From a virus: DNA of 22,841 nt. A model generated the notes under the pieces. It did no database searches. It worked only from the letters and a program-made list of their open reading frames with translations, and had not been told where the DNA came from. Below, in pieces: positions 4,653-18,594 of the stretch (the stretch's first letter is position 1; each line of letters starts with the position of its first letter). The stretch covers positions 1-22,841 of IMG/VR virus record IMGVR_UViG_3300026473_000782; one strand, written 5' to 3'. Made by a program: the position numbers and the translations under genes.

Positions 4653-5320
4653 GCGTGAAATCGGGTGTGAGATTACTGGCTGCCCTGCAGGGCGATCTCT
4701 CCAAGATGATGGCGCAGGAGCTGAACTCGGCTCGGGTGGCAGTGACCACAGGCGTGCGAGAGGCGACACAAGGACTCAAGAGTGAATTGCGCTCGCAAAT
4801 CGAAGGCTCTGGTCTGGGCTCACGTCTGGCCAATACCTGGCGTGGGGAGGTGTACCCGAAGGGACGCCCCAGCTTGGGTTCGGCGGGGCTTGTGTACAGC
4901 CGCGCGCCTGTTGTCGTTGCGGCGCACGACCAAGGTGCGTTGATCCGTTCGAAGAACGGGTTTTGGCTCGCCATCCCGCTCCCTGCAGCAGGCACTGGGT
5001 CACGCGGCAAACGCATGACGCCTGGTCTGTGGGAGCGCATGCGCGGTCAACGACTGCGCTTTGTGTATCGCTCAGGCAAACCGTCGCTCTTGGTGGCGGA
5101 CAACTTTCGGGCCAAAACAGGCAAGCGCGGAGGCTTCGCGGCAGCATCTGCCTCCGCTCAGAAATCAGGGTGGGGGCTGACCACAGTCCCCATTTTTTTG
5201 TTGGTACCGCAAGCCCAACTCAAGAAGAAATTCGACATCGCCAGTGCCGCCCAGCGGTGGCAAGACAGGCTGATGGTGTTGGTCACGCAGTGGTGGCCAG
5301 AAGAAAGTTCGGACACATGA
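4649..5320 (+). CDS. Minor tail / tail-completion protein (gpZ-like position, DUF6441-like)
   Basis: A 223-residue, Arg/Lys-rich protein. It starts in an ATGA overlap with the preceding gene. The N-terminal 60 residues look helical. The middle has repeated Gly-rich basic patches and a strand pattern including Leu-Arg-Phe-Val-Tyr-Arg-Ser-Gly-Lys-Pro-Ser-Leu-Leu-Val-Ala-Asp, which I associate with the DUF6441 family of phage proteins, though from memory rather than a search. The C-terminus has Gln-Arg-Trp-Gln-Asp and ends acidic. In lambda-like genomes the protein between head-tail joining protein and tail terminator is gpZ, needed to make tails competent for joining, and this slot fits. The specific biochemical role is not evident from sequence. 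No catalytic motif or membrane segment is seen. Confidence 0.62.
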   Translation: MSVKSGVRLLAALQGDLSKMMAQELNSARVAVTTGVREATQGLKSELRSQIEGSGLGSRLANTWRGEVYPKGRPSLGSAGLVYSRAPVVVAAHDQGALIRSKNGFWLAIPLPAAGTGSRGKRMTPGLWERMRGQRLRFVYRSGKPSLLVADNFRAKTGKRGGFAAASASAQKSGWGLTTVPIFLLVPQAQLKKKFDIASAAQRWQDRLMVLVTQWWPEESSDT

Positions 5321-5321
5321 A

Positions 5322-5768
5322 ATGACGATCAAAACCAGCCAACGAGAAGCGGCGCTGGGGGCTTTGTTCACGCTGTTGGACGGCCTTCCACTGCAGCCCA
5401 GTGCCATACGCAGAAATTCATCTTTGCCTGAGCGTCTCAGCGAGCACGCTATGGTGTTCCTGCGAGATGGGGACATGACTCAGGTCGATGTCACCTTGTC
5501 GCCTGTCACCTATTTGTGGGAGCACGCGGCAAGCATCGAAATCTATGTCGCGCACCCCGAGGCATCTGCCAGAGACGCGCGCATGGATGAATTGCTTCAG
5601 GCGCTGGGAACCCTGGTCTTGGCCGATCCGACCTTGTCTGGACAGATCGACCACACCGAAGTGATGCCGCCCAAATTTGAAGACGTCACACCCGAAGGGT
5701 CTGTGGGCATCAAGGCCTGCACGCTCGACGTGGTGATGCATTACGCGAGCAGCCATCCCTTGGCCTGA
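5322..5768 (+). CDS. Tail terminator protein (lambda gpU-like)
   Basis: A 148-residue acidic protein whose start lies one base after the preceding stop. It shows an N-terminal helix (Arg-Glu-Ala-Ala-Leu-Gly-Ala-Leu-Phe), a short loop, then a sheet with an Ala-Ser-Ile-Glu-Ile-Tyr-Val strand and a helix with Asp-Glu-Leu-Leu-Gln-Ala-Leu-Gly. It ends in a strand of the form Cys-Thr-Leu-Asp-Val-Val-Met-His-Tyr. This alpha/beta pattern and size match the gpU-type terminators that cap the tail tube at its final length and provide the head-binding interface. It is placed directly before the tail tube gene, the conserved order. Confidence comes from position and secondary-structure-like pattern; no single diagnostic motif exists for this family. 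Confidence 0.75.
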   Translation: MTIKTSQREAALGALFTLLDGLPLQPSAIRRNSSLPERLSEHAMVFLRDGDMTQVDVTLSPVTYLWEHAASIEIYVAHPEASARDARMDELLQALGTLVLADPTLSGQIDHTEVMPPKFEDVTPEGSVGIKACTLDVVMHYASSHPLA

Positions 5769-5803
5769 TCGCCTCACAAACTTTAACAACCTGGAGATTC
5801 ACC

Positions 5804-6742
5804 ATGGCTCGTGCATATGGCGCGAACGCCAGCCTATTGGCTGCGTTTGAACCCACCTATGGCAACACACCGACCGGAGACTTTGGAAAGATTCCATTTG
5901 TCTCCACCACCTTGGGCTCAGAGCAAGGCCTGATTGCTAACGATCTGATTGGCCTGGGTCGAGACCCGAGTGCGCCCATCCGTGACGTGATCAAAGTCGA
6001 GGGTGACATCGTCATTCCCATTGACCTGCGAAACATCGGCATGTGGCTCAAAGCCCTGCTGGGTAATTCAGTGAGCGTTGGGGACACCGCACACACCCAC
6101 ACCTTTGTGTCTGGCAACTCAGGTCTGCCGAGCCTGTCACTGGAGACAGGACTGCCAGACATCCCGGCTTACTTCCTGGCCTCTGGTGTGATGGCCAACT
6201 CGCTGCAGGTGAAGTTCGCACGCTCTGGTGCAGCGGATGCCACCTTGGGCCTGATTGCTCAGGGTGAGGTCAAGCGCACCGCCAGCGCAGACGCGACGCC
6301 CACAACTTTGCCGATCACCCGCTTCAATCAGTTCCAGGGTTCGATCAAAAAGAATGGTCAGGCTCTGGGCAACGTAGTCGCGGCGCAGTTGACCTATTCG
6401 AACAATTTGGCGCGCATCGAAACGATTCGCTCCGACGGAAAGATCGAAGGGGCCGATCCCACGGTGGCCAGCTTGACGGGCAACTTGGAAGTGCGCTTTG
6501 CGGACACGGAATTGATCGACGCCGCGACCAACAACACCCCGCTGGAGTTGACCTTCAGCTATGTCATTGACGCCACCAAGAGTCTGACTTTCATCGCGCA
6601 TGAGGTGTACCTGCCCAAGCCCAAGCTTTCGATCTCTGGCCCGGGGGGTATTCAAGCCACCTTCGACTGGCAGGCTGCCAAGAACACCGCAGCCGGTCAC
6701 ATGCTGACCGTGCAACTCGTCAATGACGTGGTTGCGTACTGA
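5804..6742 (+). CDS. Major tail tube protein (gpV-like)
   Basis: A 312-residue protein with an almost uninterrupted beta-strand pattern, as in the tail tube proteins that stack as hexameric rings to form the DNA conduit. It begins Met-Ala-Arg-Ala-Tyr-Gly-Ala-Asn-Ala after a GGAG ribosome-binding site. Blocks with Asp-Ile-Val-Ile-Pro-Ile-Asp-Leu-Arg, Tyr-Phe-Leu-Ala-Ser-Gly, Asn-Gln-Phe-Gln-Gly and a repeated Asn-Asn-Thr-Pro-Leu-Glu-Leu strand suit the tube fold. It is longer than lambda gpV (246), which has a tube domain plus an Ig-like surface domain; here I see no clear Ig motif and think the extra length is in tube-domain loops. It lies between terminator and the G/GT chaperone, the conserved location. 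Confidence 0.88.
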   Translation: MARAYGANASLLAAFEPTYGNTPTGDFGKIPFVSTTLGSEQGLIANDLIGLGRDPSAPIRDVIKVEGDIVIPIDLRNIGMWLKALLGNSVSVGDTAHTHTFVSGNSGLPSLSLETGLPDIPAYFLASGVMANSLQVKFARSGAADATLGLIAQGEVKRTASADATPTTLPITRFNQFQGSIKKNGQALGNVVAAQLTYSNNLARIETIRSDGKIEGADPTVASLTGNLEVRFADTELIDAATNNTPLELTFSYVIDATKSLTFIAHEVYLPKPKLSISGPGGIQATFDWQAAKNTAAGHMLTVQLVNDVVAY

Positions 6743-7108: not shown

Positions 7109-7425
7109 AGGCCCGCACCGAATGGCACTTCGGTGGTGGGGCCGCGTACTGCGGGGCATGCGAGGCGACCTGTCCTGAGTGTCCGTACCAGGTGAATTCA
7201 CCCCGGACCGAAGAAGGCTGGCAGGCCCTCGCGGTGCTTGATGTCTGTTCATCCCAAGTGCGCGCTGTTCAAGGTGCAGTGCTGGGCATGGACTTCAACG
7301 CGTGGATGTCTGCCAGCCAGGCCCTGGATGCAGACCCTGCTGCCATGACCCATTTATTCCCAGCCGTCGAGGCGGGCCTGACTCAAGCGTTGAACAAACC
7401 ATCTTCGGACAACCCACATGGCTGA
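6758..7425 (+). CDS. Tail assembly chaperone, -1 frameshift fusion (lambda gpGT-like)
   Basis: Ribosomes slipping by one base at A AAA AAC (7096-7102) continue from 7102 in the -1 frame to a stop at 7423-7425, giving a 222-residue fusion: 115 residues of G, then 107 residues of the T domain. The T frame has no good start of its own before 7192, so most of it is expressed only by frameshift. In lambda the T domain binds the tube protein and brings it to the chaperone-coated tape measure. The T part here carries a Cys-x2-Cys-x3-Cys-x2-Cys group at fusion residues 132-142 (after Ala-Ala-Tyr), which looks like a zinc knuckle and has no counterpart I know in lambda gpT. The stop falls just inside the tape measure gene, whose ATG is at 7418. 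Confidence 0.86.
7096..7143 (+). promoter_or_regulatory. Programmed -1 ribosomal frameshift signal
   Basis: The heptamer A AAA AAC at 7096-7102 is in the correct phase (GAA AAA AAC in the zero frame). After a 7-base spacer, a two-part stem follows: GGCCC at 7110-7114 pairs with GGGCC at 7139-7143, and CACCGAA at 7116-7122 pairs with TTCGGTG at 7129-7135 across a 6-base loop. Only a small internal loop separates the two helices. The zero-frame stop TGA at 7106-7108 lies in the spacer. Slippery site, spacer and structure together match the G/GT signals of tailed phages. Confidence 0.9.
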
Positions 7426-10045
7426 ACGTAACCTATCGATTCGACTGGCTGTCATTGACGGCGGCAAAGTCAAAGCCGAACTGGCAGATGTGGGCGAGGC
7501 CGGAGAGCGATCGCTCAAAAAGATCGAGTCGGCATCGCAGCCTGCCTCTGCTGGTCTGAACCTGCTATCCAAGGCGGCCAACGATGCATTCGTGCGCATG
7601 GAAGACGCAACATCCCGTCTAGGAATGCTGGGCAGTGTTCTCGGTCGTCTTGGTCCCGCCGGGATGATCGTGGGGGCATCCGTTGCTGCGCTCGGCTATG
7701 GCATGCATCAGCTGGTTGTTCCGGTTGCTGAGGTTGGCGAAGAGCTCAACAAGCTTTCTCAGAAAACCGCTGTTTCGGTCGAGGCCTTGTCGGCACTGTT
7801 GTATGCCTCCGAGCTGTCGGACGTGAGTGCTGAGAGTTTGACCAAGGCGCTCAAATTCCTCTCGACTGCCATGTTTGACGCCAAGGTCAAGGGTGGCGAA
7901 GGCAGTGCGGCGCTCAAGGCGTTCGGGGTGTCGGCGCTGGATGCGCAAGGGCAGATTCGACCAACTGAGCAGGTGCTCTTGGATCTGGCGGAGAAATTCG
8001 CAGCCATGCCCGACAGTGCAGAAAAGGCGGCACTCGCTGTCAAACTGTTCGGTAAGAACGGTCTAGACATGATCCCCATGCTCAACCAGGGGCGTGATGG
8101 GCTGACTGAAATGATGGAAGAAGCCAAGCGCCTCGGGCTGGTCATGTCTGCCGATGCAGCACGCGCTGCAGAGGAATTCAACGACAACATGAAGCGCTTG
8201 CACGCGGTCAACGAAGGCGTGCAGCGCCAAATCGGATCCGCGTTGCTGCCGATCCTGGCTGACCTGACGGAGCAGATGTTCCTGGCCAAAACCGAGGCCG
8301 GTGGATTCACGAGCGAGTTGCAGACCATCACGCACAACAGGCAACAGGTTCTGTCCTTTCTCGAGGAGGTCGCGACAGGGCTGGGATTCATTGCCGAGTC
8401 GGCAGTGCTTGCCAAGCGTGTGATCAGCCAGCCGTTTGACAGTCTGCAAGTGGTCGCCAAGGACGTGGAGACCTGGATCAAGACGGACATGCTGCGCTCC
8501 ATGAAGTCCATGGGTTATGACGAGACGCAGATCAATGCCGAAATCGCCAAGTTGCAAGCGGCGCGCGATCGGTTTGTCGAGGCGGCCAACGACCGCTTGA
8601 CGCACCTGACGGACAACCCAGGCTACGTCAACAAGATCGAAAAGTTCTTCGATGAGCAACGTCGTACGGTGCGCGTCATGGGGCAGAAATTTGTCCTGGA
8701 AACAGCAGAGCAAGCTGCACAGGTTCAGAAGATCTATGACGAGTTCTTGCCCAAGATGCCTCGCAAACGACCCAGTGGGTTAGATCTGTCTGGCTTTGAA
8801 AAGAACAACGAAGGCTTGCAATTCCTGAAGCAGTTGGAGCAGCGGGCGCTGCGCGTCACCCAAGGTGAAGGCGCTGAGTTGCGCGCACGGGCCTTGGAGC
8901 TGGAGCGCAAGGGCTATGCAGGTGTTGTCAAGGAAGCGGAGAAGTACATCGAAGCCATCGAGCGGATGGAAAAGCAGAAGGAAGCCGACAAGAAATTCGA
9001 GGAGTACGAGAAGGAGCTGCAAAAGGTCCATCAGATCACCGAGAACTACATCGGCAACAACCGCCTCAAGCAGGAAGAGTTGCAGTTGAAGCGCCAGCTA
9101 CTGGATGTCGGCGAAGTCGAGCGCGCTGCGCTGCAGACCCGCTTCGAAATGGAAAAGGCGGCTGTCATGGCATTGCGCCAGGCCGAGCAAATCAACGACC
9201 CTGGCCTCAAAGCCGAGGCTATCGCTGCGATCAACGATGCTTTGGCGCGGCAGTTGCCGATCGTTGAAGAGCTTGCACGGGCCAATGTGGAATATCAACG
9301 CAGCTTTGACTATGGCCTTCGCAGTTCTCTGCGCACCTACATCGAGGACGCGACCAATGCGGCCAAGCAGGCTGAACGTGCCGTAACCGGTGCGTTCAAG
9401 TCCATGGAGGACGCGATGGTTCAATTTGTGACGACCGGCAAGGTGGACTTCAACAGTCTGGCCAACTCGATCATTGCGGACCTGGTGCGTATCCAGATTC
9501 AAAAAATGATCACCTTGCCTTTGGCCGGGTGGATGAGCGGACTGAACCTGTTTGGTGGTTCAGGCGGCAACGGGTTGGGCGGTGCATTCCCTGCTGGAGC
9601 TACGGACCTGATGTCGGGCGGCACGATGGTGGCGCACACCGGTGCCCTGATTGGCAGCGATGTGCTGGCCACACGCTCTGTCGGGCTGCAGCACTTCGAT
9701 GGCGCTCAGCGGTTTCATACCGGTGGCTTGGTGGCAGGTGAGGTGCCCATCATTGCGCAGCCGGGTGAGGCGGTATTCACGCCGGGCCAGTTGCGCGCCT
9801 TAGGTGGTGCATTGGTAAAAAACAATCCGTCGCCGGTCAAGGTGCTGGTGAATGTGACCAACCATGCCTCGGGCGTGGACGCGAGAGTTCAAACCACCCA
9901 GCAACCCGACGGCAGTACCCGGCTGGATGTGATCGTCGAGCAGATCGAGGCGCGCATGAATCGTTCCATCAACCAGGGCGTGGGCATTGCCCCCACGCTT
10001 GAGCGTCGCTATGGGCTTAACCCAGCGGTAGGAGCTTTGCGATGA
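7418..10045 (+). CDS. Tail tape measure protein (lambda gpH family)
   Basis: An 875-residue mostly helical protein whose length sets that of the tail tube. Residues 1-60 are a short globular start. A Gly/Ala-rich hydrophobic stretch around residues 75-95 resembles the membrane-inserting parts of tape measures. Long Ala/Glu/Lys/Gln-rich helical segments follow, including a highly charged coiled-coil-like section around residues 500-560. The C-terminal region around residues 660-705 has the Phe-Lys-Ser-Met-Glu-Asp-Ala and Lys-Val-Asp-Phe-Asn-Ser-Leu pattern typical of the lambda tape-measure C-terminal domain, followed by Gly-rich loops. The ATG at 7418 overlaps the GT stop. By the rough lambda relation of residues to tail length, a tail a little longer than lambda's (gpH is 853) is expected; this is an estimate. 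Confidence 0.93.
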   Translation: MAERNLSIRLAVIDGGKVKAELADVGEAGERSLKKIESASQPASAGLNLLSKAANDAFVRMEDATSRLGMLGSVLGRLGPAGMIVGASVAALGYGMHQLVVPVAEVGEELNKLSQKTAVSVEALSALLYASELSDVSAESLTKALKFLSTAMFDAKVKGGEGSAALKAFGVSALDAQGQIRPTEQVLLDLAEKFAAMPDSAEKAALAVKLFGKNGLDMIPMLNQGRDGLTEMMEEAKRLGLVMSADAARAAEEFNDNMKRLHAVNEGVQRQIGSALLPILADLTEQMFLAKTEAGGFTSELQTITHNRQQVLSFLEEVATGLGFIAESAVLAKRVISQPFDSLQVVAKDVETWIKTDMLRSMKSMGYDETQINAEIAKLQAARDRFVEAANDRLTHLTDNPGYVNKIEKFFDEQRRTVRVMGQKFVLETAEQAAQVQKIYDEFLPKMPRKRPSGLDLSGFEKNNEGLQFLKQLEQRALRVTQGEGAELRARALELERKGYAGVVKEAEKYIEAIERMEKQKEADKKFEEYEKELQKVHQITENYIGNNRLKQEELQLKRQLLDVGEVERAALQTRFEMEKAAVMALRQAEQINDPGLKAEAIAAINDALARQLPIVEELARANVEYQRSFDYGLRSSLRTYIEDATNAAKQAERAVTGAFKSMEDAMVQFVTTGKVDFNSLANSIIADLVRIQIQKMITLPLAGWMSGLNLFGGSGGNGLGGAFPAGATDLMSGGTMVAHTGALIGSDVLATRSVGLQHFDGAQRFHTGGLVAGEVPIIAQPGEAVFTPGQLRALGGALVKNNPSPVKVLVNVTNHASGVDARVQTTQQPDGSTRLDVIVEQIEARMNRSINQGVGIAPTLERRYGLNPAVGALR

Positions 10046-10563: not shown

Positions 10564-13272
10564 ATGACCCTCAAGACCCGGCTGGATGAAGCTGTGGGAA
10601 CGATCGAGGGGGATGCCCAACTGCTCCATGAGATCGTCCACGGGGATGATCAGACGACCGTGACCACGCAAGGTGGCCAGGTCAAGAGCGTGGCCAACGT
10701 CATACATGGGGTTCAAACCCAACTTGATGCGTCCCGCCAAGATCTGACCAATCAGGTGGCTACGGCCACCCAACAAGCGAGTAATGCTGCTCAATCGGCT
10801 AGCAATGCATCGACATCGGCCACAACAGCCAGTACCAAGGCAAGTGCGGCCAGTGATTCTGCAACCAGTGCGGCAAGTTCTGCGACGGCTGCGGCGTCTT
10901 CGGCAACCACGGCCAGTACCAAAGCCAGTGATGCCAGCAGCAGCAAAACGGCAGCGGCCACCTCTGCAACCAATGCGGCCACCAGTGCCACCAATGCAGC
11001 GAGCTCGGCAACAGCGGCGGCAGCCTCGGCCACCACCGCGACGCAAAAGGCCAGCGATGCGGCCACCAGTGCCAGTTCGGCGGCGAGCTCCGCCTCCACG
11101 GCCAGCAGTAAGGCAACAGATGCACAGACCGCTTTGGCGTCGGCTCAGTCGCAGGCTTCGTTGGCGTCTGACTGGGCGCAAAAAACCGCTGCAACCGTTG
11201 ACGGCACTGGGTATTCGGCGAAGTATTGGGCCGGTCAGGCAGCCAACTCGGCAGCAGTGGTGACCACCAATACGGTGATTCCGGCTGATGTGTTTGCAGG
11301 GGATGGCGTCAAGACGGATTTCACCCTCAGCCATCCCGTGGCCTATCCGGGTGCTGTGTTGGTGACGGTGGCTGGAGTTCCTCAAGCACCGATAGATTCG
11401 TACTCGGTCCCCGCAAGTACGACCCTGCGCTTTGTGTCCGCACCGGCAACAGGTGTGGGCATCAGTGTTCGGTATCTCGACAAGGAGGCTCAATCTGGCG
11501 CAGCGTCTGCACAGGAGTGGGCCACCAAAACCGGCGGTGTGGTCTCCGGCTCGACGGAATATTCGGCCAAGTACCACGCCCAGGCAGCTGCTGCGAGTGC
11601 CACTTCGGCATCGTCGTCTGCGACGGCGGCATCTGGAAGTGCGACATCGGCAGCAGGCTCCGCAACCACGGCCACGACCAAGGCTGCCGATGCAGGGACG
11701 TCGGCCACCAATGCGGCAACTTCAGCCACCACAGCCAGCACCAAGGCCAGCGACGCTGCGACATCGGCGACCAATGCTGCCAACAGTGCCAGTGGTGCAT
11801 CTGCCTCTGCAACAATAGCAACGGCTAAGGCCACCGATGCAAACAGCAGCGCAACAGCTGCAGCAAGTTCGGCCAGCAGTGCATCTGGCAGTGCCATTCT
11901 GGCGCAGGATTGGGCGACCAAAACGACAGCCCCCGTCAGCGGCAGCGACTATTCGGCCAAGTATTACGCCCAGTCGATCTCTGCTTCAGCATCAACCGCC
12001 ACGCAAAAGGCAACGGATGCGGCGGCCAGTGCGACGGCTGCGGCTGGTTCAGCAAGTACCGCCTCGACCAAAGCCTCGGATGCCGCAACGTCGGCGACCA
12101 ATGCAGCGACTTCTGCCAGTACCGCCAGTACGCAGGCGGCTGCAGCGGCAACCTCAGCCACGAATGCGGCGAGCTCCGCTACTGCAGCGGCAGGTTCGGC
12201 CACCACCGCAAGTGGCAAAGCGACGGACGCAGCCAACAGTGCCACAGCGGCAGCAACCTCGGCCAGCAACGCCAGCACGAGTGCCACCAATGCAGCAACT
12301 TCGGCCACGTCGGCAGCTGGGGCAGCCACAACGGCAACGACTAAAGCTGGGGATGCAACGGCGAGTGCAACTTCCGCTGCTAATTCGGCGACTGCGGCGG
12401 CAGGCAGTGCCACAAGCGCAGCAGGGTCGTTGACGGCATCGCAGGCGCAAGCAACACTGGCTTCTGATTGGGCGCAAAAGACCACCGGTACGGTCGACGG
12501 CAGTGGTTACTCAGCCAAATACTGGGCGGGGCAAGCGGCAGGATCGGCAGCAGCGGTGACGGCCAATACGGTCATTCCCGCCGATGTGTTCACCGGCGAT
12601 GGCGTGAAGACGGATTTCACAATCAGTCGGCCCGTTGGATATCCCGGAGCACTGATGGTGACGGTTGCCGGGGTGCCTCAAGCACCCTTGGATGCCTACA
12701 CCACACCAGCCACGACAACACTCAGATTCAGTTCGGCTCCTGCCAATGGCGTCGTGATCAGCGTGCGCTACCTGGACAAGGAAGCGCAGTCTGGCGCAGC
12801 CGCAGCCGAGGAATGGGCGAACAAGACGTCGGGACCTGTTTCAGGATCGACCGAGTATTCGGCCAAGTACTACGCACAGTCCATCGCTGCAAGTGCGGCG
12901 ACGGCCAGTCAGCAAGCAACCAGTGCCGCGAATTCGGCTGCGGCGTCGGCTGGCAGTGCGACCGCATCGGCGAACTCTGCGACAGCATCAGCAACATCTG
13001 CCACCCAAGCTCAGAGCTACATGAGTCAGGCGCAGGGGTATGCCGCTGCAGCGGGCGGCTCCAGCGTCGCTCCACAGGTCTTTACAGGCAATGGTTCGGC
13101 TACTGACTTCAGTCTGAGCACTGCAGCGTCCAGCGTCCACAAATTGATCGTGACGGTCAATTACGTGGTGCAGGACTCACTCGATGCCTACGTCCTGGTC
13201 AATTCCGGGGCGACTTTGCGATTCACATCAGCACCAGCCGCCAGCGCGCGGATTGTGGTGCGTTACATCTAA
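10564..13272 (+). CDS. Long side tail fibre, Ala/Ser/Thr repeat protein with duplicated beta modules
   Basis: A 902-residue protein beginning after AAGGA. Residues 1-65 form a polar attachment domain with many Gln/Asp, the type seen at the base of lambda-like side fibres. The rest is dominated by Ala-Ser-Ala-Thr-rich repeats of the form Ala-Thr-Ser-Ala-x-x-Ala, typical of fibre shafts. They are interrupted by three copies of a beta-rich module with Thr-Asp-Phe-Thr/Ser-(Leu/Ile)-Ser and a final Val-Arg-Tyr: about residues 237-305, 669-737 and 836-902. Five Trp-Ala-x-Lys-Thr ... Tyr-Ser-Ala-Lys-Tyr motifs are scattered between. The shaft is likely a trimer. The final module ends the protein, so receptor binding probably relies on the following fibre-tip protein. 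Function by analogy with lambda Stf; receptor unknown. Confidence 0.9.
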   Translation: MTLKTRLDEAVGTIEGDAQLLHEIVHGDDQTTVTTQGGQVKSVANVIHGVQTQLDASRQDLTNQVATATQQASNAAQSASNASTSATTASTKASAASDSATSAASSATAAASSATTASTKASDASSSKTAAATSATNAATSATNAASSATAAAASATTATQKASDAATSASSAASSASTASSKATDAQTALASAQSQASLASDWAQKTAATVDGTGYSAKYWAGQAANSAAVVTTNTVIPADVFAGDGVKTDFTLSHPVAYPGAVLVTVAGVPQAPIDSYSVPASTTLRFVSAPATGVGISVRYLDKEAQSGAASAQEWATKTGGVVSGSTEYSAKYHAQAAAASATSASSSATAASGSATSAAGSATTATTKAADAGTSATNAATSATTASTKASDAATSATNAANSASGASASATIATAKATDANSSATAAASSASSASGSAILAQDWATKTTAPVSGSDYSAKYYAQSISASASTATQKATDAAASATAAAGSASTASTKASDAATSATNAATSASTASTQAAAAATSATNAASSATAAAGSATTASGKATDAANSATAAATSASNASTSATNAATSATSAAGAATTATTKAGDATASATSAANSATAAAGSATSAAGSLTASQAQATLASDWAQKTTGTVDGSGYSAKYWAGQAAGSAAAVTANTVIPADVFTGDGVKTDFTISRPVGYPGALMVTVAGVPQAPLDAYTTPATTTLRFSSAPANGVVISVRYLDKEAQSGAAAAEEWANKTSGPVSGSTEYSAKYYAQSIAASAATASQQATSAANSAAASAGSATASANSATASATSATQAQSYMSQAQGYAAAAGGSSVAPQVFTGNGSATDFSLSTAASSVHKLIVTVNYVVQDSLDAYVLVNSGATLRFTSAPAASARIVVRYI
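11161..11583 (+). repeat. Direct duplication, copy 1, inside fibre gene
   Basis: This stretch and 12457-12879 encode the same Trp-motif plus beta-module block, and are collinear at a fixed offset of 1296 bases (432 codons) with no insertion or deletion visible between them. They differ mainly at third positions and a few replaced residues, which points to an old internal duplication with continued selection. Confidence 0.85.
12457..12879 (+). repeat. Direct duplication, copy 2, inside fibre gene
   Basis: Second copy of the block at 11161-11583, offset 1296 bases. Shared landmarks include the Asn-Thr-Val-Ile-Pro-Ala-Asp-Val-Phe start of the beta module and the Leu-Asp-Lys-Glu-Ala-Gln-Ser-Gly-Ala segment that follows it. 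A third, partial and more divergent beta module without this linker lies at 13072-13269. Confidence 0.85.
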
Positions 13273-13284
13273 CTAGGAGAAATC

Positions 13285-13839
13285 ATGGCGATTACGCGCA
13301 TCCCCAAAGCGGGGCTGGATGATGCCTTGCAGAACGAAATCAATGGCAAGTTGGACAAGGCCGGTGGAACCATGACGGGCTCCATCACGATGACCAATGG
13401 AGCCTTGTTCAAGAGCAGCGTCACAAGTGATGACGCTCGAAATACGGGCTACAAGATGGCCGACGGGCAGGACATCGGAGAGATGAATCGCTCAAGTCAG
13501 TACTACGACGACCGGGCCACCAACTGCAATGGATATCTGCCTAATGGCAACTGCGCCAGTAACGGGTACTGGAATCCACCCAATGGCAATTGGTGGACTT
13601 GGGGAGTGAGCGGCGTGCCGACAGGAAACTGTGCCAACTGGGGCAGCTATGACGGTGCAGGCGGCACCTCTCAGGTCTTCAACGCGGTGTCGGTCGGATT
13701 CAACTACGACGGGTACTACGAAGCCGCCAATGAGATCGGTGGTTCTGAATACCACCGTTGGTATCGCAATTGCAACTGTGGGGCGTTCAACTGCCGAACC
13801 AATTGCAATTGCAACTGTGCCTGTTGCGGCTGCTGCTGA
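13285..13839 (+). CDS. Fibre-tip-like protein with Asn-Cys-rich C-terminal tail; candidate substrate of a modification system
   Basis: A 184-residue protein that starts after AGGAGA. Residues 1-50 resemble the short repeats of tail fibres, with Lys-Leu-Asp-Lys-Ala-Gly-Gly-Thr-Met-Thr-Gly at 22-32, common in T4 gp37/short-fibre-like proteins. Residues 78-125 are Asn/Gly/Trp-rich (Trp 96, 103, 104, 106, 119). The last 22 residues (163-184) hold ten cysteines, alternating with Asn as Asn-Cys-Asn-Cys then ending Ala-Cys-Cys-Gly-Cys-Cys. In total there are 13 Cys, nine of them directly preceded by Asn (81, 90, 116, 163, 165, 170, 174, 176, 178). I know no fibre family with this tail. Position just before the beta-rich protein and the oxygenase/radical SAM genes makes it the best candidate substrate. 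A metal-binding tip is an alternative. The tail has no visible peptidase site, and nothing suggests export. Confidence 0.8.
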   Translation: MAITRIPKAGLDDALQNEINGKLDKAGGTMTGSITMTNGALFKSSVTSDDARNTGYKMADGQDIGEMNRSSQYYDDRATNCNGYLPNGNCASNGYWNPPNGNWWTWGVSGVPTGNCANWGSYDGAGGTSQVFNAVSVGFNYDGYYEAANEIGGSEYHRWYRNCNCGAFNCRTNCNCNCACCGCC

Positions 13840-13848
13840 GGAGATGCG

Positions 13849-14682
13849 ATGAAAGTCTATATCACCCGTCCCCCGGCCTATGCAAGCTCGCCAGATCACG
13901 TGGTTCGTGTCTTGGTCGATGCGCCAAAGCAACGCGTTGGTGTTGAGATGTGCATTGTTTTTTCACCCAATCCCAGCGAACCAGTGCCAGATGATGGGAG
14001 CGTTGTGCAAAGCGGTGACAAGTTCTACAAGGTCATCGCTGCCAGCGAGTTTGACTATGAGCTGCTCAAAAGAAGTACGGGGTGGGCGGATCGTCAAGCC
14101 TGGCATCTGACATTCCGTTGGGATGTCCGGTCGTTCACTGATCCGATCCCGCTCTACACCTATTCCATGGCCACCAAGATGTCGGCCCCAGAGTTGTCCC
14201 GAACGACTTACCAAAACAATCTGTCGGTGGGCTTTGTGGTTCCGTTCTCGGACTCGGCCTTTGAAGACTGTGCTGTGACCGTGAACATCAACCCCGATGT
14301 GAACAAAGGCGATTGTGTGGTGATGGGCGTGGACGCCTCGGAAATCGAACGTACCGACTATTCGGCGAGTGCCCAGGTACGGGAGTTGATCTTGTTGCCT
14401 GGTGTCCAGATATCAGCGCCAACGAGCTGTACACCTGACGGCCAGGTCAACGTCCAGGTGCAAGTGCTTGATGCAAATGACATGCCTATTGAGCACGATG
14501 CTGAAATCTTTCTTGAGGCGGTCAATGGCTACCTTCCAAAGACCCGCATCAAAACAGTCAACGGCCAGGCAAGTGTCCCTTTCATGGCCTTGGGCCTTGT
14601 GGCAGGAGATTCAGCACGGGTCAAAGCCGGTTTCAAATATTTCAGTGGTGCTTCTGATGTCTCCATCCAGATCCATGACTAA
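13849..14682 (+). CDS. Beta-rich tail-associated protein with C-terminal Ig-like domain, unknown function
   Basis: A 277-residue protein of predicted beta character, start after GAGGAG. Residues 1-185 are of unknown fold, with Trp/Tyr-containing strands and a Val-Gly-Phe-Val-Val-Pro-Phe strand near 126-132. Residues 185-277 look like an Ig-like (bacterial Big/invasin type) domain: Ile-Ser-Ala-Pro-Thr-Ser-Cys-Thr-Pro-Asp-Gly at the start, alternating Val/Ile strands, then Val-Asn-Gly-Gln-Ala-Ser-Val-Pro-Phe and Ala-Gly-Asp-Ser-Ala-Arg-Val-Lys-Ala. Ig-like domains are common on phage surface proteins, where they may help bind to carbohydrates. Its place between the Cys-rich tip and the oxygenases suggests it is either a second structural tip component or a partner of the modification genes. 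No catalytic motif is seen. Its stop overlaps the next start by eight bases. Confidence 0.75.
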   Translation: MKVYITRPPAYASSPDHVVRVLVDAPKQRVGVEMCIVFSPNPSEPVPDDGSVVQSGDKFYKVIAASEFDYELLKRSTGWADRQAWHLTFRWDVRSFTDPIPLYTYSMATKMSAPELSRTTYQNNLSVGFVVPFSDSAFEDCAVTVNINPDVNKGDCVVMGVDASEIERTDYSASAQVRELILLPGVQISAPTSCTPDGQVNVQVQVLDANDMPIEHDAEIFLEAVNGYLPKTRIKTVNGQASVPFMALGLVAGDSARVKAGFKYFSGASDVSIQIHD

Positions 14683-15283
14683 GGAGCTGTTTGGAGCAAG
14701 GGTATATGTCGGTCTCCATCCATTTCCAGATGACGTGATGCTGGAGATGCGCAAACGGGCGCTGGCTTTACACGAGAGCATTAATCCTCATGGCATGCCA
14801 TGGTCTCGATGCACACGGGAGAGTTTGCATGTCGTCGAACCATTTCAGCAGGTTACGGAATTGATCGAGCATGTGGTCGAGACTGAGTACGGATGCAGTG
14901 TGAGCCACCTGACTGGACGAGAAGTGGTCATACAGAAAGGGCAATGCCTGCCGCTGCACTGTGAGGACACCGATCTGTCAGCGGTATTCGTGCTGAGTAC
15001 TGAAGCCAGGGCGAATCCTGAGCGCAGTGATTACTCCGGCGCATTCGTTTTGGTCAATCCGAGTGGAGCGTTTGGATTCAAGCGCCTGCCATGGGAGGGG
15101 CTGAGATCGGAACTGATTTATCCGGCAGCAGGAATGCTGTTGATTTTCCCGAGCTACCTGGCTCACCACACTCACCCCTACAACGCACAGGAGCCAGCGG
15201 TTGAGTTGCACTTCGAACTCAACGTGGTCGACAACCATGCCCATCAACGTTTACGACAACCCAGTTTCCCCCGAACTCTGTGA
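14675..15283 (+). CDS. 2-oxoglutarate/Fe(II) oxygenase-like protein 1
   Basis: A 202-residue protein from the ATG at 14675, which overlaps the preceding stop by 8 bases; an in-frame ATG at 14657 is a second option. The second half shows a double-stranded beta-helix signature of the 2OG/Fe(II) oxygenase superfamily: a Leu-Pro-Leu-His-Cys-Glu-Asp (92-98), then Leu-Ser-Ala-Val-Phe-Val-Leu (101-107), a Gly-Ala-Phe-Val-Leu-Val-Asn-Pro strand, a Pro-Ala-Ala-Gly-Met-Leu-Leu-Ile-Phe-Pro turn (150-159), and His164/His165. Candidate metal ligands are His95, Glu97 and a His of 164-167. The 2OG-binding Arg expected near residue 176 is not obvious (Val/Glu there), so activity is uncertain. If active, it would hydroxylate or oxidise a protein side chain. 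Its last 47 bases overlap the next gene. Confidence 0.7.
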   Translation: MTKELFGARVYVGLHPFPDDVMLEMRKRALALHESINPHGMPWSRCTRESLHVVEPFQQVTELIEHVVETEYGCSVSHLTGREVVIQKGQCLPLHCEDTDLSAVFVLSTEARANPERSDYSGAFVLVNPSGAFGFKRLPWEGLRSELIYPAAGMLLIFPSYLAHHTHPYNAQEPAVELHFELNVVDNHAHQRLRQPSFPRTL

Positions 15284-15824
15284 AGCAACGCGAGCCTGGC
15301 TTTTGTCGCAAAGCCCCATCTTCGGATGGCGAGCACACGCGAATGCACCAGGCGTGTTCTGGCATCGAAATTTCGTGTTGCCAGGAATACATCAACACCA
15401 CTATGACGATGATGCTTGGAATTCTGAGCTGAGTTACGAGGCCTTTTGTGCGTCGAAAAGCCCCTTGGCTGAGGTTGCCGAGATCGTTCGCCAGCAGCAC
15501 TTTGGCGGAGAGTCCTTCACTCGGATCTGGGCTAACTTTCAGTCCTTTGGTGACGAGTCAGCATTTCACAGGGACTTCCCTGTGCAGTACGCACGGACTG
15601 CCCGCACAGCCGTTTGGTATCCAATGATGAACTGGGAGAGGGATTGGGGTGGTGATTTCATCACTCTCTCGGATGACGGAGAGGTCGATGCCTGCACATT
15701 GATTAAACCCAATCGACTGGTGGTGTTTAACGGGACGCAAACGCATGCAGCTCGTCCAATTTCTCGCTACTGCAGCGAACTGCGAATAGCAGTTTCATTC
15801 GGATGTGAGGTGATCAATGCTTGA
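15237..15824 (+). CDS. 2-oxoglutarate/Fe(II) oxygenase 2, prolyl-4-hydroxylase-like
   Basis: A 195-residue protein of the P4H-like 2OG/Fe(II) dioxygenase family, the clearest of the three. The His-x-Asp is His111-Arg-Asp113, the distal His is His170 (in Asn-Gly-Thr-Gln-Thr-His-Ala), and the 2OG-binding Arg is Arg183, 13 residues on (Glu-Leu-Arg-Ile-Ala-Val-Ser-Phe). A Trp-Gly-Gly-Asp-Phe (138-142) sits in the usual fold position. Such enzymes hydroxylate Pro, Asn, Asp or other side chains of proteins using O2 and 2-oxoglutarate. I choose the ATG at 15237 over an in-frame ATG at 15201; both lie inside the preceding gene, so the two overlap. Substrate is unknown; the Asn-Cys tail of the 13285 protein is the inferred target. 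The end overlaps the next gene by eight bases. Confidence 0.88.
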   Translation: MPINVYDNPVSPELCEATRAWLLSQSPIFGWRAHANAPGVFWHRNFVLPGIHQHHYDDDAWNSELSYEAFCASKSPLAEVAEIVRQQHFGGESFTRIWANFQSFGDESAFHRDFPVQYARTARTAVWYPMMNWERDWGGDFITLSDDGEVDACTLIKPNRLVVFNGTQTHAARPISRYCSELRIAVSFGCEVINA

Positions 15825-16482
15825 GCATCTATGGAGCACTCCAGTTCTCCATGAGGAGTCGCCCTTCACCATGGACCAGCTTGAGGAGTTGAAGCAATTC
15901 ACAACTGAGCGATTTCGCAATCACAAAGCCAATCCGCCTCGTCATGCATTGCCTGATGTGCCCGTGAAGTTGCGAACGCAGCTGAATCTGTTCTTGCCTG
16001 ATCATGAGATGCATGCCCCAGCGGTCTGGTTTGAATTCAAACGCTGGGTAGATCGCACCTACCGCGCCTATCTGAAAGAGGCCCATGGAGTTAGGAATGT
16101 GAACGAGCTTGAAGTGCTCGCTCGGTGCATCCCTGTCTGCTACCAAAAGGGCATGCGCGCGCAGCCTCATTACCACCACACTGGCGATCATGTGCTGTGT
16201 CTGTATTTGGATTGCGGCAACGACCGAATACCTCCTCAGGACCGTGATTGGACGGTCGGAGATGGTGAATTGCTCTTACAGGACCCCCGCCCCATGGCGG
16301 GGTTTCCATTTTGGGAGAAGGTTCGCTACATCGAAACATCTCCCGGCCTGGTCGTATTGCACCCATCGCGGGTATGGCATGAGACCAACCCCTTCAATGC
16401 CCCAAGCGGTCAACGCACCTTGTTGGTCGTGACCCTGCGTGTGGCGTCCCACAACTACACCGAGCTGTACACCCGGCTATGA
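15817..16482 (+). CDS. 2-oxoglutarate/Fe(II) oxygenase-like protein 3
   Basis: A 221-residue protein whose core resembles the TIGR02466-like branch of 2OG/Fe(II) oxygenases: Gln-Pro-His-Tyr-His-His (116-121) before Val-Leu-Cys-Leu-Tyr-Leu-Asp, Gly-Glu-Leu-Leu-Leu-Gln-Asp-Pro-Arg (150-158), a Ser-Pro-Gly-Leu-Val-Val-Leu-His-Pro-Ser turn (175-184), His188 and Arg200 (Gly-Gln-Arg-Thr-Leu-Leu-Val). This spacing of His188 and Arg200 fits the distal His and 2OG-binding Arg. The first metal pair is not a plain His-x-Asp; His118 and His120 or His121 are the candidates. The N-terminal 100 residues are helical and charged and may bind the substrate. It is the third oxygenase-like gene in a row and is not closely similar to the other two by eye, so it is not a recent duplicate. 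Confidence 0.75.
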   Translation: MLEHLWSTPVLHEESPFTMDQLEELKQFTTERFRNHKANPPRHALPDVPVKLRTQLNLFLPDHEMHAPAVWFEFKRWVDRTYRAYLKEAHGVRNVNELEVLARCIPVCYQKGMRAQPHYHHTGDHVLCLYLDCGNDRIPPQDRDWTVGDGELLLQDPRPMAGFPFWEKVRYIETSPGLVVLHPSRVWHETNPFNAPSGQRTLLVVTLRVASHNYTELYTRL

Positions 16483-16500
16483 GCCGATTCGGAGATGACG

Positions 16501-16698
16501 ATGATTGAGAAAACCATAGACCTCGTTGATGACGAGCATGTTTTGTTCACTGTGACGGTAGTCGAAGGCGAGCGTATCCGCTCCCGTCGTGAGTACCACT
16601 TGGCCAAGTTCGCCCACCAAGACGCTGAAGAGGTCTGCCGACAGGCTTGCCCCGAGGCATTCGCACAAGAGCCGTCGGTTCAGAGTGGAGGCGTGTGA
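16501..16698 (+). CDS. Small 65-residue protein of unknown function between oxygenases and radical SAM gene
   Basis: A 65-residue acidic protein. I choose the ATG at 16501, six bases after GGAG at 16491-16494, over an in-frame ATG at 16495 which is too close to that site. The first half shows alternating hydrophobic residues of a small beta-hairpin (Val-Leu-Phe-Thr-Val-Thr-Val-Val-Glu-Gly-Glu), then a helix containing Gln-Asp-Ala-Glu-Glu-Val-Cys. It has two Cys (46, 50). The stop overlaps the radical SAM ATG (TGATG), so it is likely made in step with that enzyme. Small adapter proteins that bind the precursor are common next to peptide-modifying radical SAM genes, but this one lacks an obvious winged-helix (PqqD-like) pattern and is shorter. 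I do not recognise its family. Confidence 0.7.
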   Translation: MIEKTIDLVDDEHVLFTVTVVEGERIRSRREYHLAKFAHQDAEEVCRQACPEAFAQEPSVQSGGV

Positions 16699-18059
16699 TG
16701 GCCAAGTTCACATTGCTGGCACGCGATCGTGCCAATTCACCCGTTACGCTGACTTACGACAACCAGACCAGTGAACTGCTTGATGGGGATCTGATGCCTT
16801 GGCCTCTGCCGTATGTGGAAAAAACCTGGTCGGTTGGTCACATCGAGGCGATTAGCCAGACGATGCCAGGGCGCAAAGAGAGTCCAAAAGTTCTGAAAAT
16901 TCAGCTCGGTCTTTCATGCAACTATTCGTGTGACTACTGCAGCCAGCGATTCGTTCCTCATGCTGAAGAAACAACGCAGTCAGATGTGCCGCAGTTCTTG
17001 CATCTGCTCGAATCAAGTCTTGAGAGGGCTCCAGAGCGCATTGAGTTCTGGGGAGGGGAGCCGCTGGTCTACATCAAGACCTTGCGTCCATTGGCCGAGG
17101 CCCTGCGACAGCGATACCCGACTGCTTCATTCAGCATCGTTACCAACGGCTCTTTACTCAACCCTGAGGTCAACACCTGGCTTGATGTGATGGGATTTGG
17201 CGTCGGCGTTAGTCACGACGGACCAGGACAACCCGCTCGCGGCCCAGATCCGTTGAATGATGAGGCGAGTCGCGAAGGAATCATGGATTTGTATCAACGA
17301 CTTGCACCGAAGGGGCGCATTTCGTTCAATGCTATGGTCCATAGAACCAACACCAGCCGGGAGGAAATCGCCAAGTTCTTCCTCCAGTTGACAGGAGACC
17401 CATCGCTGTCAATCGGCGAAGGTGCTTTTGTTGATCCTTACGATGCTGGTGGCTTGGCCAATTCGATCCAGTCTGATCAGGAGGCGTTTGCATTCCGACG
17501 TCAATCGCTTGATGAGATCCGTCGTGGTCGTATCGTTCATTTGGACGTGGCTCGATCCCGCATGCAGGAATGGGCGCGCAGTATCTTGGAGCGTCGTCCT
17601 GCCAGCGTATTGGGCCAAAAGTGCGGGATGGATACCGCGAATCAAGTCGCCGTCGACCTTATGGGTAATGTGCTCACCTGTCAGAACGTGAGCTCGGTTT
17701 CTGTTGCACCCAATGGGCAATCACATCACATTGGCCATCTCTCCAATCTCAAAGCAGCTGCACTCAACACATCGACACACTGGTCAAAGCGTACGGAATG
17801 CCTGAATTGCCCAGTGCTTCAGGCTTGTAAGGGCGCTTGCATGTTCTTAGAGGGGCCGTTGTGGACAGCCGCCTGCGATAACGCGTACTCGGACCATGTG
17901 CCATTCTTTGTGGCCGCTATTGAACACCTAACCGGGTGTGCCGTTTATCGCATCGAAGGCGATTTGCCAGAGGATCGAGCTGACGTTTTTGGGCTGAAGT
18001 CGCAGGACCAAAGATCACCGCGACGCAAGTTCATCCCGATCGAGGTCTCAAATGCCTGA
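16698..18059 (+). CDS. Radical SAM/SPASM-domain protein-modifying enzyme
   Basis: A 453-residue radical SAM protein with a SPASM domain. I choose the ATG at 16698 (ribosome-binding site GTGGAG) over the in-frame ATG at 16647. The canonical cluster motif is Cys74-x3-Cys78-x2-Cys81, with Gly-Gly-Glu-Pro at 119-122 and Thr-Asn-Gly-Ser near 149-152. The C-terminal auxiliary domain has a complete SPASM pattern: Cys309, Cys328 (Cys-x13-Gly-x4-Cys), then Cys368-x2-Cys371-x5-Cys377-x3-Cys381, and Cys393, enough for two auxiliary 4Fe-4S clusters. SPASM enzymes mostly act on ribosomal peptides or proteins, making thioether, carbon-carbon or other crosslinks, or serving as maturases. The target is inferred to be the Cys-rich tip protein at 13285. 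It ends 8 bases inside the next tail gene. Enzyme class is certain; reaction is not. Confidence 0.93.
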   Translation: MAKFTLLARDRANSPVTLTYDNQTSELLDGDLMPWPLPYVEKTWSVGHIEAISQTMPGRKESPKVLKIQLGLSCNYSCDYCSQRFVPHAEETTQSDVPQFLHLLESSLERAPERIEFWGGEPLVYIKTLRPLAEALRQRYPTASFSIVTNGSLLNPEVNTWLDVMGFGVGVSHDGPGQPARGPDPLNDEASREGIMDLYQRLAPKGRISFNAMVHRTNTSREEIAKFFLQLTGDPSLSIGEGAFVDPYDAGGLANSIQSDQEAFAFRRQSLDEIRRGRIVHLDVARSRMQEWARSILERRPASVLGQKCGMDTANQVAVDLMGNVLTCQNVSSVSVAPNGQSHHIGHLSNLKAAALNTSTHWSKRTECLNCPVLQACKGACMFLEGPLWTAACDNAYSDHVPFFVAAIEHLTGCAVYRIEGDLPEDRADVFGLKSQDQRSPRRKFIPIEVSNA

Positions 18060-18594
18060 TGCAGCACTTTCTGAGGCGCTTCGGGAGGCTTATGCAAGCG
18101 CTCCAAGCAACGTGATCATCCTGCATACCCTGGAGATCCGGCATCCGGACTTCAGGGACGACGCGGGTAACTCGACGGCGATCCGGGTGGTGCGTGATCA
18201 GCAAGACTTACTTGCGAGGCTTGAGGCATCAGCCCCAATCAATGCGGGCCAGCAGGTTCGATTCGTTGCCATGGGCTTTGAGCTTGATCTTCCGCCGGTG
18301 GATATCGCGCCGGTTCCCGAAATTGCGATCACCCTGGACAACGTCACCCGAGAGATCGTGAAGCACTTGGACGAGGCATCGGCTTCGGAGTCATCCATTG
18401 AAGTGACCTACCGTCCGTACCTGTCCAACGATCTGAGTGGTCCGCAGATGGATCCACCGATCACGCTCGTGATCACCGAAGTCGAGGCCGACGTGCAGCG
18501 GGTCACCGCCAAGGCACGCATGGCGGACATTGGCAACAAGACATTCCCGTCACGTCTGTACACCGCAACCGAATTCCCAGGGCTGGCCCGATGA
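18052..18594 (+). CDS. DUF1833-family minor tail protein (gpL-like position)
   Basis: A 180-residue protein recognised as DUF1833, a phage tail-tip family. It starts with Leu-Arg-Glu-Ala-Tyr-Ala-Ser-Ala-Pro and shows Leu-His-Thr-Leu-Glu-Ile-Arg-His-Pro (25-33), a Phe-Val-Ala-Met-Gly-Phe-Glu-Leu-Asp-Leu-Pro strand, and ends with Lys-Thr-Phe-Pro-Ser-Arg-Leu-Tyr-Thr, all typical for this family. It occupies the place of lambda gpL, which joins the tape measure tip and may carry an iron-sulphur cluster; this protein has no cysteine, so no such cluster is expected here. It resumes the tail gene order after the modification genes and starts inside the end of the radical SAM gene. The stop overlaps the next start by four bases. 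Confidence 0.85.
   Translation: MPDAALSEALREAYASAPSNVIILHTLEIRHPDFRDDAGNSTAIRVVRDQQDLLARLEASAPINAGQQVRFVAMGFELDLPPVDIAPVPEIAITLDNVTREIVKHLDEASASESSIEVTYRPYLSNDLSGPQMDPPITLVITEVEADVQRVTAKARMADIGNKTFPSRLYTATEFPGLAR

Follow-up and report, generated by a model that had tools for sequence, protein, structure and literature searches.

An Asn-Cys tail of phage fibre tips, its strict linkage to a radical SAM/SPASM enzyme gene and its probable chemical modification

The protein encoded by the positions shown above ends in a run of closely paired asparagine and cysteine residues, and a radical SAM/SPASM enzyme is encoded a few genes downstream. The question raised by the locus is what this tail is for, and whether the enzyme acts on it. 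The window analysed, which is the whole stretch of 22,841 bases of an IMG/VR virus record, is the tail module of a tailed phage, and the answer supported by the evidence below is that phages probably modify chemically the tips of their own tail fibres.

The tip protein and its surroundings

From 5' to 3', a long fibre gene is followed by the 184-residue tip ORF, a 277-residue ORF, three oxygenase-like ORFs, a 67-residue ORF, the radical SAM/SPASM gene, and a DUF1833 gene (Table 1; gene calls are mechanical ORF calls). The genes of this cassette mostly overlap or are closely spaced, and several candidate protein-modifying enzymes are found among them. The host is most likely a freshwater burkholderialean, since Limnohabitans, Paraburkholderia, Polynucleobacter, and various alphaproteobacterial assemblies carry relatives of the enzyme in prophage-like regions, the closest isolate relative being Limnohabitans sp. 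JirII-31 (76% in the enzyme).

Table 1. Position, strand, and supporting evidence of the fibre gene, the cassette, and the Asn-Cys units
Feature	Position	Strand	Evidence
Ala/Ser/Thr-rich tail fibre protein, 902 aa, upstream neighbour of putative substrate gene	10564..13272	+	PHROGs tail fibre families, best phrog_3279 E 4e-27
Fibre-tip protein, 184 aa, with Asn-Cys tail, putative substrate	13285..13839	+	PHROGs tail-fibre matches weak, E 0.02-0.06
Upstream Asn-Cys units N80-C81 / N89-C90 / N115-C116	13522..13527 / 13549..13554 / 13627..13632	+	Asn-Cys is the rule for isolated Cys
C-terminal Asn-Cys tail NCNCGAFNCRTNCNCNCACCGCC, residues 162-184, putative modification site	13768..13836	+	Cys spacing conserved in all relatives; co-occurrence with radical SAM gene
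Cassette partner, 277 aa, C-terminal intimin/invasin-like Ig domain	13849..14682	+	AlphaFold2 pLDDT 95.7; Foldseek
Candidate 2OG-Fe(II) oxygenase A, 202 aa, likely start ATG 14675	14675..15283	+	PF13759 26.2 bits (cut-off 27); phrog_81 E 2e-8
Candidate 2OG-Fe(II) oxygenase B, 195 aa, likely start ATG 15237	15237..15824	+	PF13640 26.6 bits (cut-off 27); FlmC model E 2e-11, under its cut-off
Candidate 2OG-Fe(II) oxygenase C, 221 aa	15817..16482	+	PF13759 26.7 bits (cut-off 27); phrog_81 E 3e-9
Small 67-aa protein	16495..16698	+	Stop overlaps radical SAM start (TGATG); only in the window's subgroup, ~55 loci
Radical SAM/SPASM enzyme, 453 aa, putative maturase of the tail	16698..18059	+	phrog_1802 E 6e-60; TIGR04085 SPASM 33.5 bits (cut-off 27)
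DUF1833 minor tail protein, conserved, right edge of cassette, used as anchor	18052..18594	+	PF08875 E 2.5e-43

The coding sequence of the tip protein runs from 13285 to 13836, with a ribosome-binding site, AGGAGA, ahead of its ATG. The protein holds 13 Cys in 184 residues, and the count in the first-pass annotation of nine of them directly preceded by Asn, the upstream pairs at 81, 90, and 116 included, is borne out by the residues of the ORF (the others being Cys 163, 165, 170, 174, 176, and 178). At least nine such pairs arose in 3 out of 200,000 shuffles of the protein's own residues. The tail itself had been placed at 13771-13836, residues 163-184, and is indeed found there; its motif truly starts at Asn162, one codon earlier, and its alternation is interrupted, the pattern being NCNC-GAF-NC-RT-NCNCNC-AC-CGCC.

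Comparison with the related locus L006 shows 10 codons and no residues differing among the final 23, with dN of 0.024 and a saturated dS of ~2 over the whole tip gene; judged by these codon differences, the tail is under strong purifying selection. A tandem repeat at the DNA level was rejected as its cause: AAT/AAC and TGC/TGT codons are mixed and the differences from L006 in the tail are silent. By the same codon evidence, it is as a protein and not as DNA that the tail is selected. Related loci of the tip protein number 70 in IMG/VR, and in 38 aligned representative relatives residues N162, C163, N164, C165, N173, C174, N175, C176, C178, and C180 are invariant, N169, C170, N177, and C181 being conserved in at least 90%. 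The terminal runs of these relatives vary from 3 to 10 x-Cys units, the variation being distal and the Cys spacing constant.

Sequence searches of the annotated phage collection with the tip protein, as well as those with a model Asn-Cys-rich peptide, gave no match, low-complexity filtering possibly hiding some, and a profile of the tip protein had no match in the PDB. Its single-chain AlphaFold2 model shows a mean pLDDT of 66, with values below 50 for residues 164-184, and is not usable; fibres are usually trimers, whereas the models produced here are of single chains.

Linkage of the tail to the enzyme

In hundreds of phage sequences the Asn-Cys tail is accompanied by a dedicated radical SAM enzyme gene, and the linkage between both is strict. 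IMG/VR was scanned for DNA coding for (Asn-Cys)4, a query that favours Asn, and at least 93 ORFs of 60 residues or more were retrieved in which the repeat lies no further than 12 residues from the stop; the repeat proteins are tail and fibre proteins that carry it at the extreme C-terminus. Among the matches listed, the enzyme was nearby on the same strand in all 56 C-terminal cases followed by at least 4 kb of DNA and, at 3 kb, in 66 out of 67, these linkage counts not being independent because the loci are related. Again among the matches listed, the enzyme was almost never near matches that were not C-terminal or not within an ORF, and the two exceptions (L164 and L268) are tail-type proteins too, in which further residues follow the run.

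When the survey was anchored on the enzyme, an x-Cys repeat ORF was found near most loci; those without it are contigs cut short, members of a chromosomal branch outside phages (Variovorax and Ramlibacter), and a few others (e.g., L096, L099, L141, and L150). Anchoring on the DUF1833 gene, which is retained in relatives without the cassette, gave 32 contigs with at least 5.5 kb upstream, with enzyme and repeat together in 19, neither in 13 (one of these, L361, being a contig that ends before the cassette), and one alone in none. The label requires ~2 changes on the DUF1833 tree, so this contrast does not represent 32 independent events. Since the negatives also lack the 277-residue protein and the oxygenases, the whole cassette is exchanged as a block.

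The tail is, moreover, found on many proteins. The 150 residues preceding the repeat fall into 12 single-linkage groups with no BLAST similarity between them (E-values of locus comparisons refer to the fetched loci only), including the type found in the window with its linked fibres, and small Asn-Cys-rich ORFs located 9-75 bases upstream of the enzyme. In the Achromobacter phages JWF and 2-1 the fibre run ends as NCNCDCNCNCSC or NCNCDCNCSC, and its last Cys opens a Hint domain, detected in JWF from residue 308 (Pfam, 47.5 bits against a cut-off of 32.1, E 3e-12). In L151 and L136, an S74 chaperone domain starts two residues after the run, at an SD motif (29.1 and 22.4 bits, respectively, against a Pfam cut-off of 22; E 1e-6). 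S74 and Hint domains cut at their own start, so that in such relatives the repeat would become the new C-terminus. The tip protein of the window contains neither domain and ends in the tail itself.

A third type of extension, of sequence CSKIICAKL... or similar, directly follows the Asn-Cys run in L112 (6952-7854), L164 (44-943), and L020 (7830-8729); this domain, in the position of Hint or S74, had no confident match in Pfam or PHROGs.

The other members of the cassette are less constant. Among 110 loci with tail, enzyme, and enough flank, at least one relative of the 2OG-Fe(II) oxygenases is present in 64, and the 277-residue family or its apparent alternative, jw29, in 88; tail and enzyme are still present in some loci without either of the latter. 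Foldseek matches of the 277-residue protein are Ig domains of intimin and invasin; its modelled fold is more in keeping with a structural or adhesin partner than with an enzyme, and same-fold relatives occur in other phages. The three oxygenase-like ORFs reach Pfam E-values of ~1e-5, with PHROG 81 backing two of them.

Regarding the enzyme, PF04055 is matched with 29.6 bits (cut-off 29.5), the CxxxCxxC cysteines 74, 78, and 81 are conserved, and PHROG 1802 is matched over residues 71-416 of the 470-residue ORF (E 6.4e-60). The full seven-Cys SPASM pattern, CX9-15GX4C..CX2CX5CX3C..C, is present in the family: in 25-26 diverse representatives C309, G323, C328, C368, C371, C377, and C381 are invariant and C393 is conserved in at least 90%, the set of cysteines being complete for two auxiliary clusters. 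The best named models, all distant and far under their cut-offs, correspond to thioether or peptide maturases, namely PapB (NCBIfam equivalog, 62.2 against 340 bits), geopeptide, and QhpD (51.5 against 453 bits). Since every named maturase cut-off lies far above the scores of the enzyme, a reaction type is not transferable from these models. Among solved structures, those nearest in sequence are 8vpo, an unnamed radical SAM protein, the anaerobic sulfatase maturase (anSME), and CteB. Pfam and NCBIfam yielded no match to an RRE model, and no leader peptide was identified.

Some relatives of the enzyme depart from this arrangement. In L332 (Polynucleobacter) and L339 (Halomonas), the radical SAM gene is split into pieces in different frames, and the neighbouring tail of L332 is also irregular (NCNCDRNCGC). 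On Variovorax and Ramlibacter chromosomes (L323, L324, L326, L329, and L335), relatives of the enzyme lie near a ~780-residue protein that ends in HPCT or HPFT and has no Asn-Cys tail, these relatives being possibly a non-phage branch with another substrate.

Sequence rules and candidate chemistry

Asn occupies position -1 in 434 of 477 distinct isolated-Cys contexts (91%), no other offset being similar, while the 367 x positions of terminal runs are taken mainly by Asn (218), Ala (80), and Asp (42), with Asn at most of the first positions and Ala and Asp entering distally. Within runs, Gly (2 observed, 46 expected), Ser (3, 32), Thr (5, 33), Tyr (0, 25), and Pro (0, 14) are rare, Gly, Ser, Thr, and Tyr being common just upstream. 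An enzyme that needs a substituted carbon from x, or that recognises Asn-Cys, could be expected to impose such exclusions; if the tail served only for metal binding or disulphides, there would be little reason for Gly, Ser, and Thr to be shunned.

Two stricter rules were not borne out. A strict need for the Asn side chain does not hold, and the Asn amide cannot be essential in the distal run, because Asn is often replaced there by Ala or Asp. The NxxC thioether spacing (i/i+3, as in NxxcA) is unsupported for isolated Cys, Asn at -3 occurring at 0.9x background; inside runs the Asn-x-x-Cys spacing occurs trivially.

The first-pass annotation had proposed a region selected for chemistry on each Asn-Cys unit, and named as support for it homologues in which the units would vary in number and keep their pairing. 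At the genetic level the proposal is strongly supported, a radical SAM/SPASM enzyme being present in every testable case, and the related proteins agree with it in the varying number of units, the fixed Cys spacing, and the Asn before isolated Cys. The pairing itself is looser than proposed, since Ala or Asp often stand for Asn in the distal run; the unit is better written as (Asn/Ala/Asp)-Cys, and its chemistry would be as follows.

Our preferred reading, to which we give a probability of roughly three in four, is a phage-encoded, RiPP-like maturation cassette in which the SPASM enzyme acts on the Asn-Cys units at the fibre tip and most probably forms thioethers. The tail with its conservation and terminal position, the linkage to the enzyme, the residue rules, and the intact motifs of the enzyme are observed in the sequences; what we infer comprises the action of the enzyme on the tail, the type of bond, and the purpose. 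The 184-residue protein would be the fibre tip, its C-terminus presenting the (Asn/Ala/Asp)-Cys run; the radical SAM/SPASM enzyme of the same cassette, possibly helped by the candidate 2OG-Fe(II) oxygenases encoded in between, would modify the units before or during virion assembly; the likeliest product would be thioether links from the Cys sulphur to the alpha or beta carbon of Asn, Ala, or Asp; and a flexible tail may thereby become a rigid, reduction-resistant tip for host contact or entry. Thioethers are considered likeliest because (i) SPASM enzymes with two auxiliary cluster sites make them on Cys-rich substrates in all the nearest characterised cases, and (ii) NxxcA and freyrasin contain C-beta links of the Cys-Asn and Cys-Asp kind (PMC8326336). 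The suggested purpose, a rigid exposed tip, is read only from the position of the tail at the fibre end. Since the NxxC spacing is not enriched for isolated units, either a new cross-link geometry, for example between adjacent residues, or a role of Asn-Cys as recognition unit for links elsewhere would be implied; we know of no precedent for a thioether to the adjacent residue.

It is also reasonably likely that the cassette represents a widespread form of viral virion maturation, in which phages of freshwater Burkholderiales and other hosts convert fibre-tip (Asn/Ala/Asp)-Cys repeats to a new poly-thioether structure, possibly between adjacent residues, or to an otherwise modified one, with Hint or S74 domains exposing the end in some of them.

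The alternative that survives best, though we consider it unlikely, is that the enzyme acts on the tail without forming thioethers, either by epimerization (PoyD-like, giving an alternating D/L beta-helix) or by converting Cys to formylglycine (anSME-like). The strict 1,3 periodicity of the runs fits the every-second-residue pattern of PoyD, with polytheonamide as precedent (PMC8326336). The exclusion of Gly fits epimerization as well, and both the presence of anSME among the nearest solved structures and the frequency of 2OG oxygenases among the loci favour this alternative as a whole. However, the Asn-Cys pairing holds also for isolated units outside periodic runs, and the SPASM domain of the enzyme is complete, while we know of no PoyD-type epimerase with a complete one. 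As for formylglycine, the anSME target motif CxPxR/CxAxR is absent from the tail, and the sulfatase-maturase model yields 38.8 bits against a cut-off of 349.

Less probable still, and in our judgement doubtful, is an unmodified tail that serves as a metallothionein-like metal-binding or disulphide-locked tip, the enzyme targeting something else, such as the 277-residue partner or nucleic acid. The C-x-C repeats and the terminal CCGCC do look like metal ligands, and the authors who described the radical SAM module of the Thermus phages Cumys and phiMa tentatively suggested DNA modification for it (PMC11437467). Nonetheless, metal or disulphide chemistry leaves unexplained both the Asn before 91% of isolated Cys and the loss of Gly, Ser, and Thr between Cys; it is with the tail that the enzyme is linked, the 277-residue family or its alternative being missing in some loci; and no metallothionein family was matched in Pfam. 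The metal-binding tip and disulphide cap that were first offered as alternatives are possible as final states, but alone they account neither for the enzyme nor for the exclusion of Gly, Ser, and Thr. Finally, that tail and enzyme are neutral hitchhikers in an often-swapped fibre cassette is highly improbable. In its favour, the cassette is built of modules and is swapped as one block among related phages; against it, the tail has one and the same enzyme family beside it in ~12 unrelated contexts with several gene orders, and purifying selection acts on the tail.

Relation to known systems

Radical SAM/SPASM chemistry has been described for natural products of peptide origin and for a small number of cellular enzymes. 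In the open-licence PMC literature, preprints excluded, no description was found of a radical SAM enzyme acting on phage fibres. If fibre tips are modified in this way, by thioethers or otherwise, a viral particle would carry RiPP-type chemistry at its point of host contact, and phages would finish their virions with reactions that nobody sought there, with possible effects on host recognition, stability, and entry; a large natural substrate set with an unusual Asn-Cys dipeptide rule would be gained as well for finding new enzyme chemistry. The hypothesis is directly testable: Achromobacter phage JWF, an isolated phage (PMC3899368), has the enzyme together with an Asn-Cys-Hint fibre, and cultured Limnohabitans strains have close relatives of the cassette.

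Repeat proteins and radical SAM genes were also observed together in other phages. In Salmonella phage SPN3US (NC_027402), two distant radical SAM genes, gp102 and gp103 (7184-9299), closely follow the gene of a protein with Cys-x3-Cys repeats (...SCSGGCSGTCTGSCSGGCGKSCSANC...; ~5093-5914), possibly as a second, independent phage system of the same kind. In Campylobacter phage CP220, a 123-residue protein with 27 Cys in CxxC repeats (15845-16216) lies ~7 kb from the radical SAM genes CPT_0017 and CPT_0023. ORFs of ~70-80 residues ending in HTHxFxDDY[SG]T[AN]CNCNCNCNC occur in L159 (11426-11671), L165, L200, L208, and L224, with up to four radical SAM genes downstream where there is enough DNA. 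In Thermus phage Cumys (PQ109079, 6940-9230), a His-x-Asp repeat protein directly precedes the radical SAM gene within the baseplate module, and the C-terminus of the enzyme itself has the same HGD-type repeats.

Cumys and phiMa resemble the present locus in having a radical SAM gene by tail or baseplate genes, directly after a repeat-rich protein (PMC11437467), and differ from it in that their enzyme is distant (28% identity over a third) and their repeat is His-x-Asp instead of Asn-Cys. Self-processed phage fibres, which remove their C-terminal domain (S74 endosialidase chaperone), and Hint/BIL domains are related through the relatives in which S74 or Hint directly follows the Asn-Cys tail, but the protein of the window has neither domain. 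QhpD, the SPASM enzyme of quinohemoprotein amine dehydrogenase, puts thioethers into a folded functional protein and not into a peptide product, as is proposed here; unlike the phage enzyme, it is cellular, and makes Cys-Asp and Cys-Glu links in a dehydrogenase subunit. A further parallel in layout is that of ranthipeptides and sactipeptides (PapB/freyrasin, NxxcB/NxxcA, CteB with SCIFF, and RumMC/ruminococcin C), where a Cys-rich repeated substrate is likewise found beside a SPASM enzyme with two auxiliary cluster sites, and Asn, Asp, or Ala next to Cys are plausible acceptors. In contrast to them, the substrate here would be the C-terminal tip of a phage tail or fibre protein and not a small leader-core peptide, the enzyme falls far under all named families with no RRE or leader found, and the rule is an Asn-Cys dipeptide and not an NxxC or CX3D motif. 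The locus combines a known enzyme class with a new kind of substrate and setting, and would be categorically new if modification of the virion is proven.
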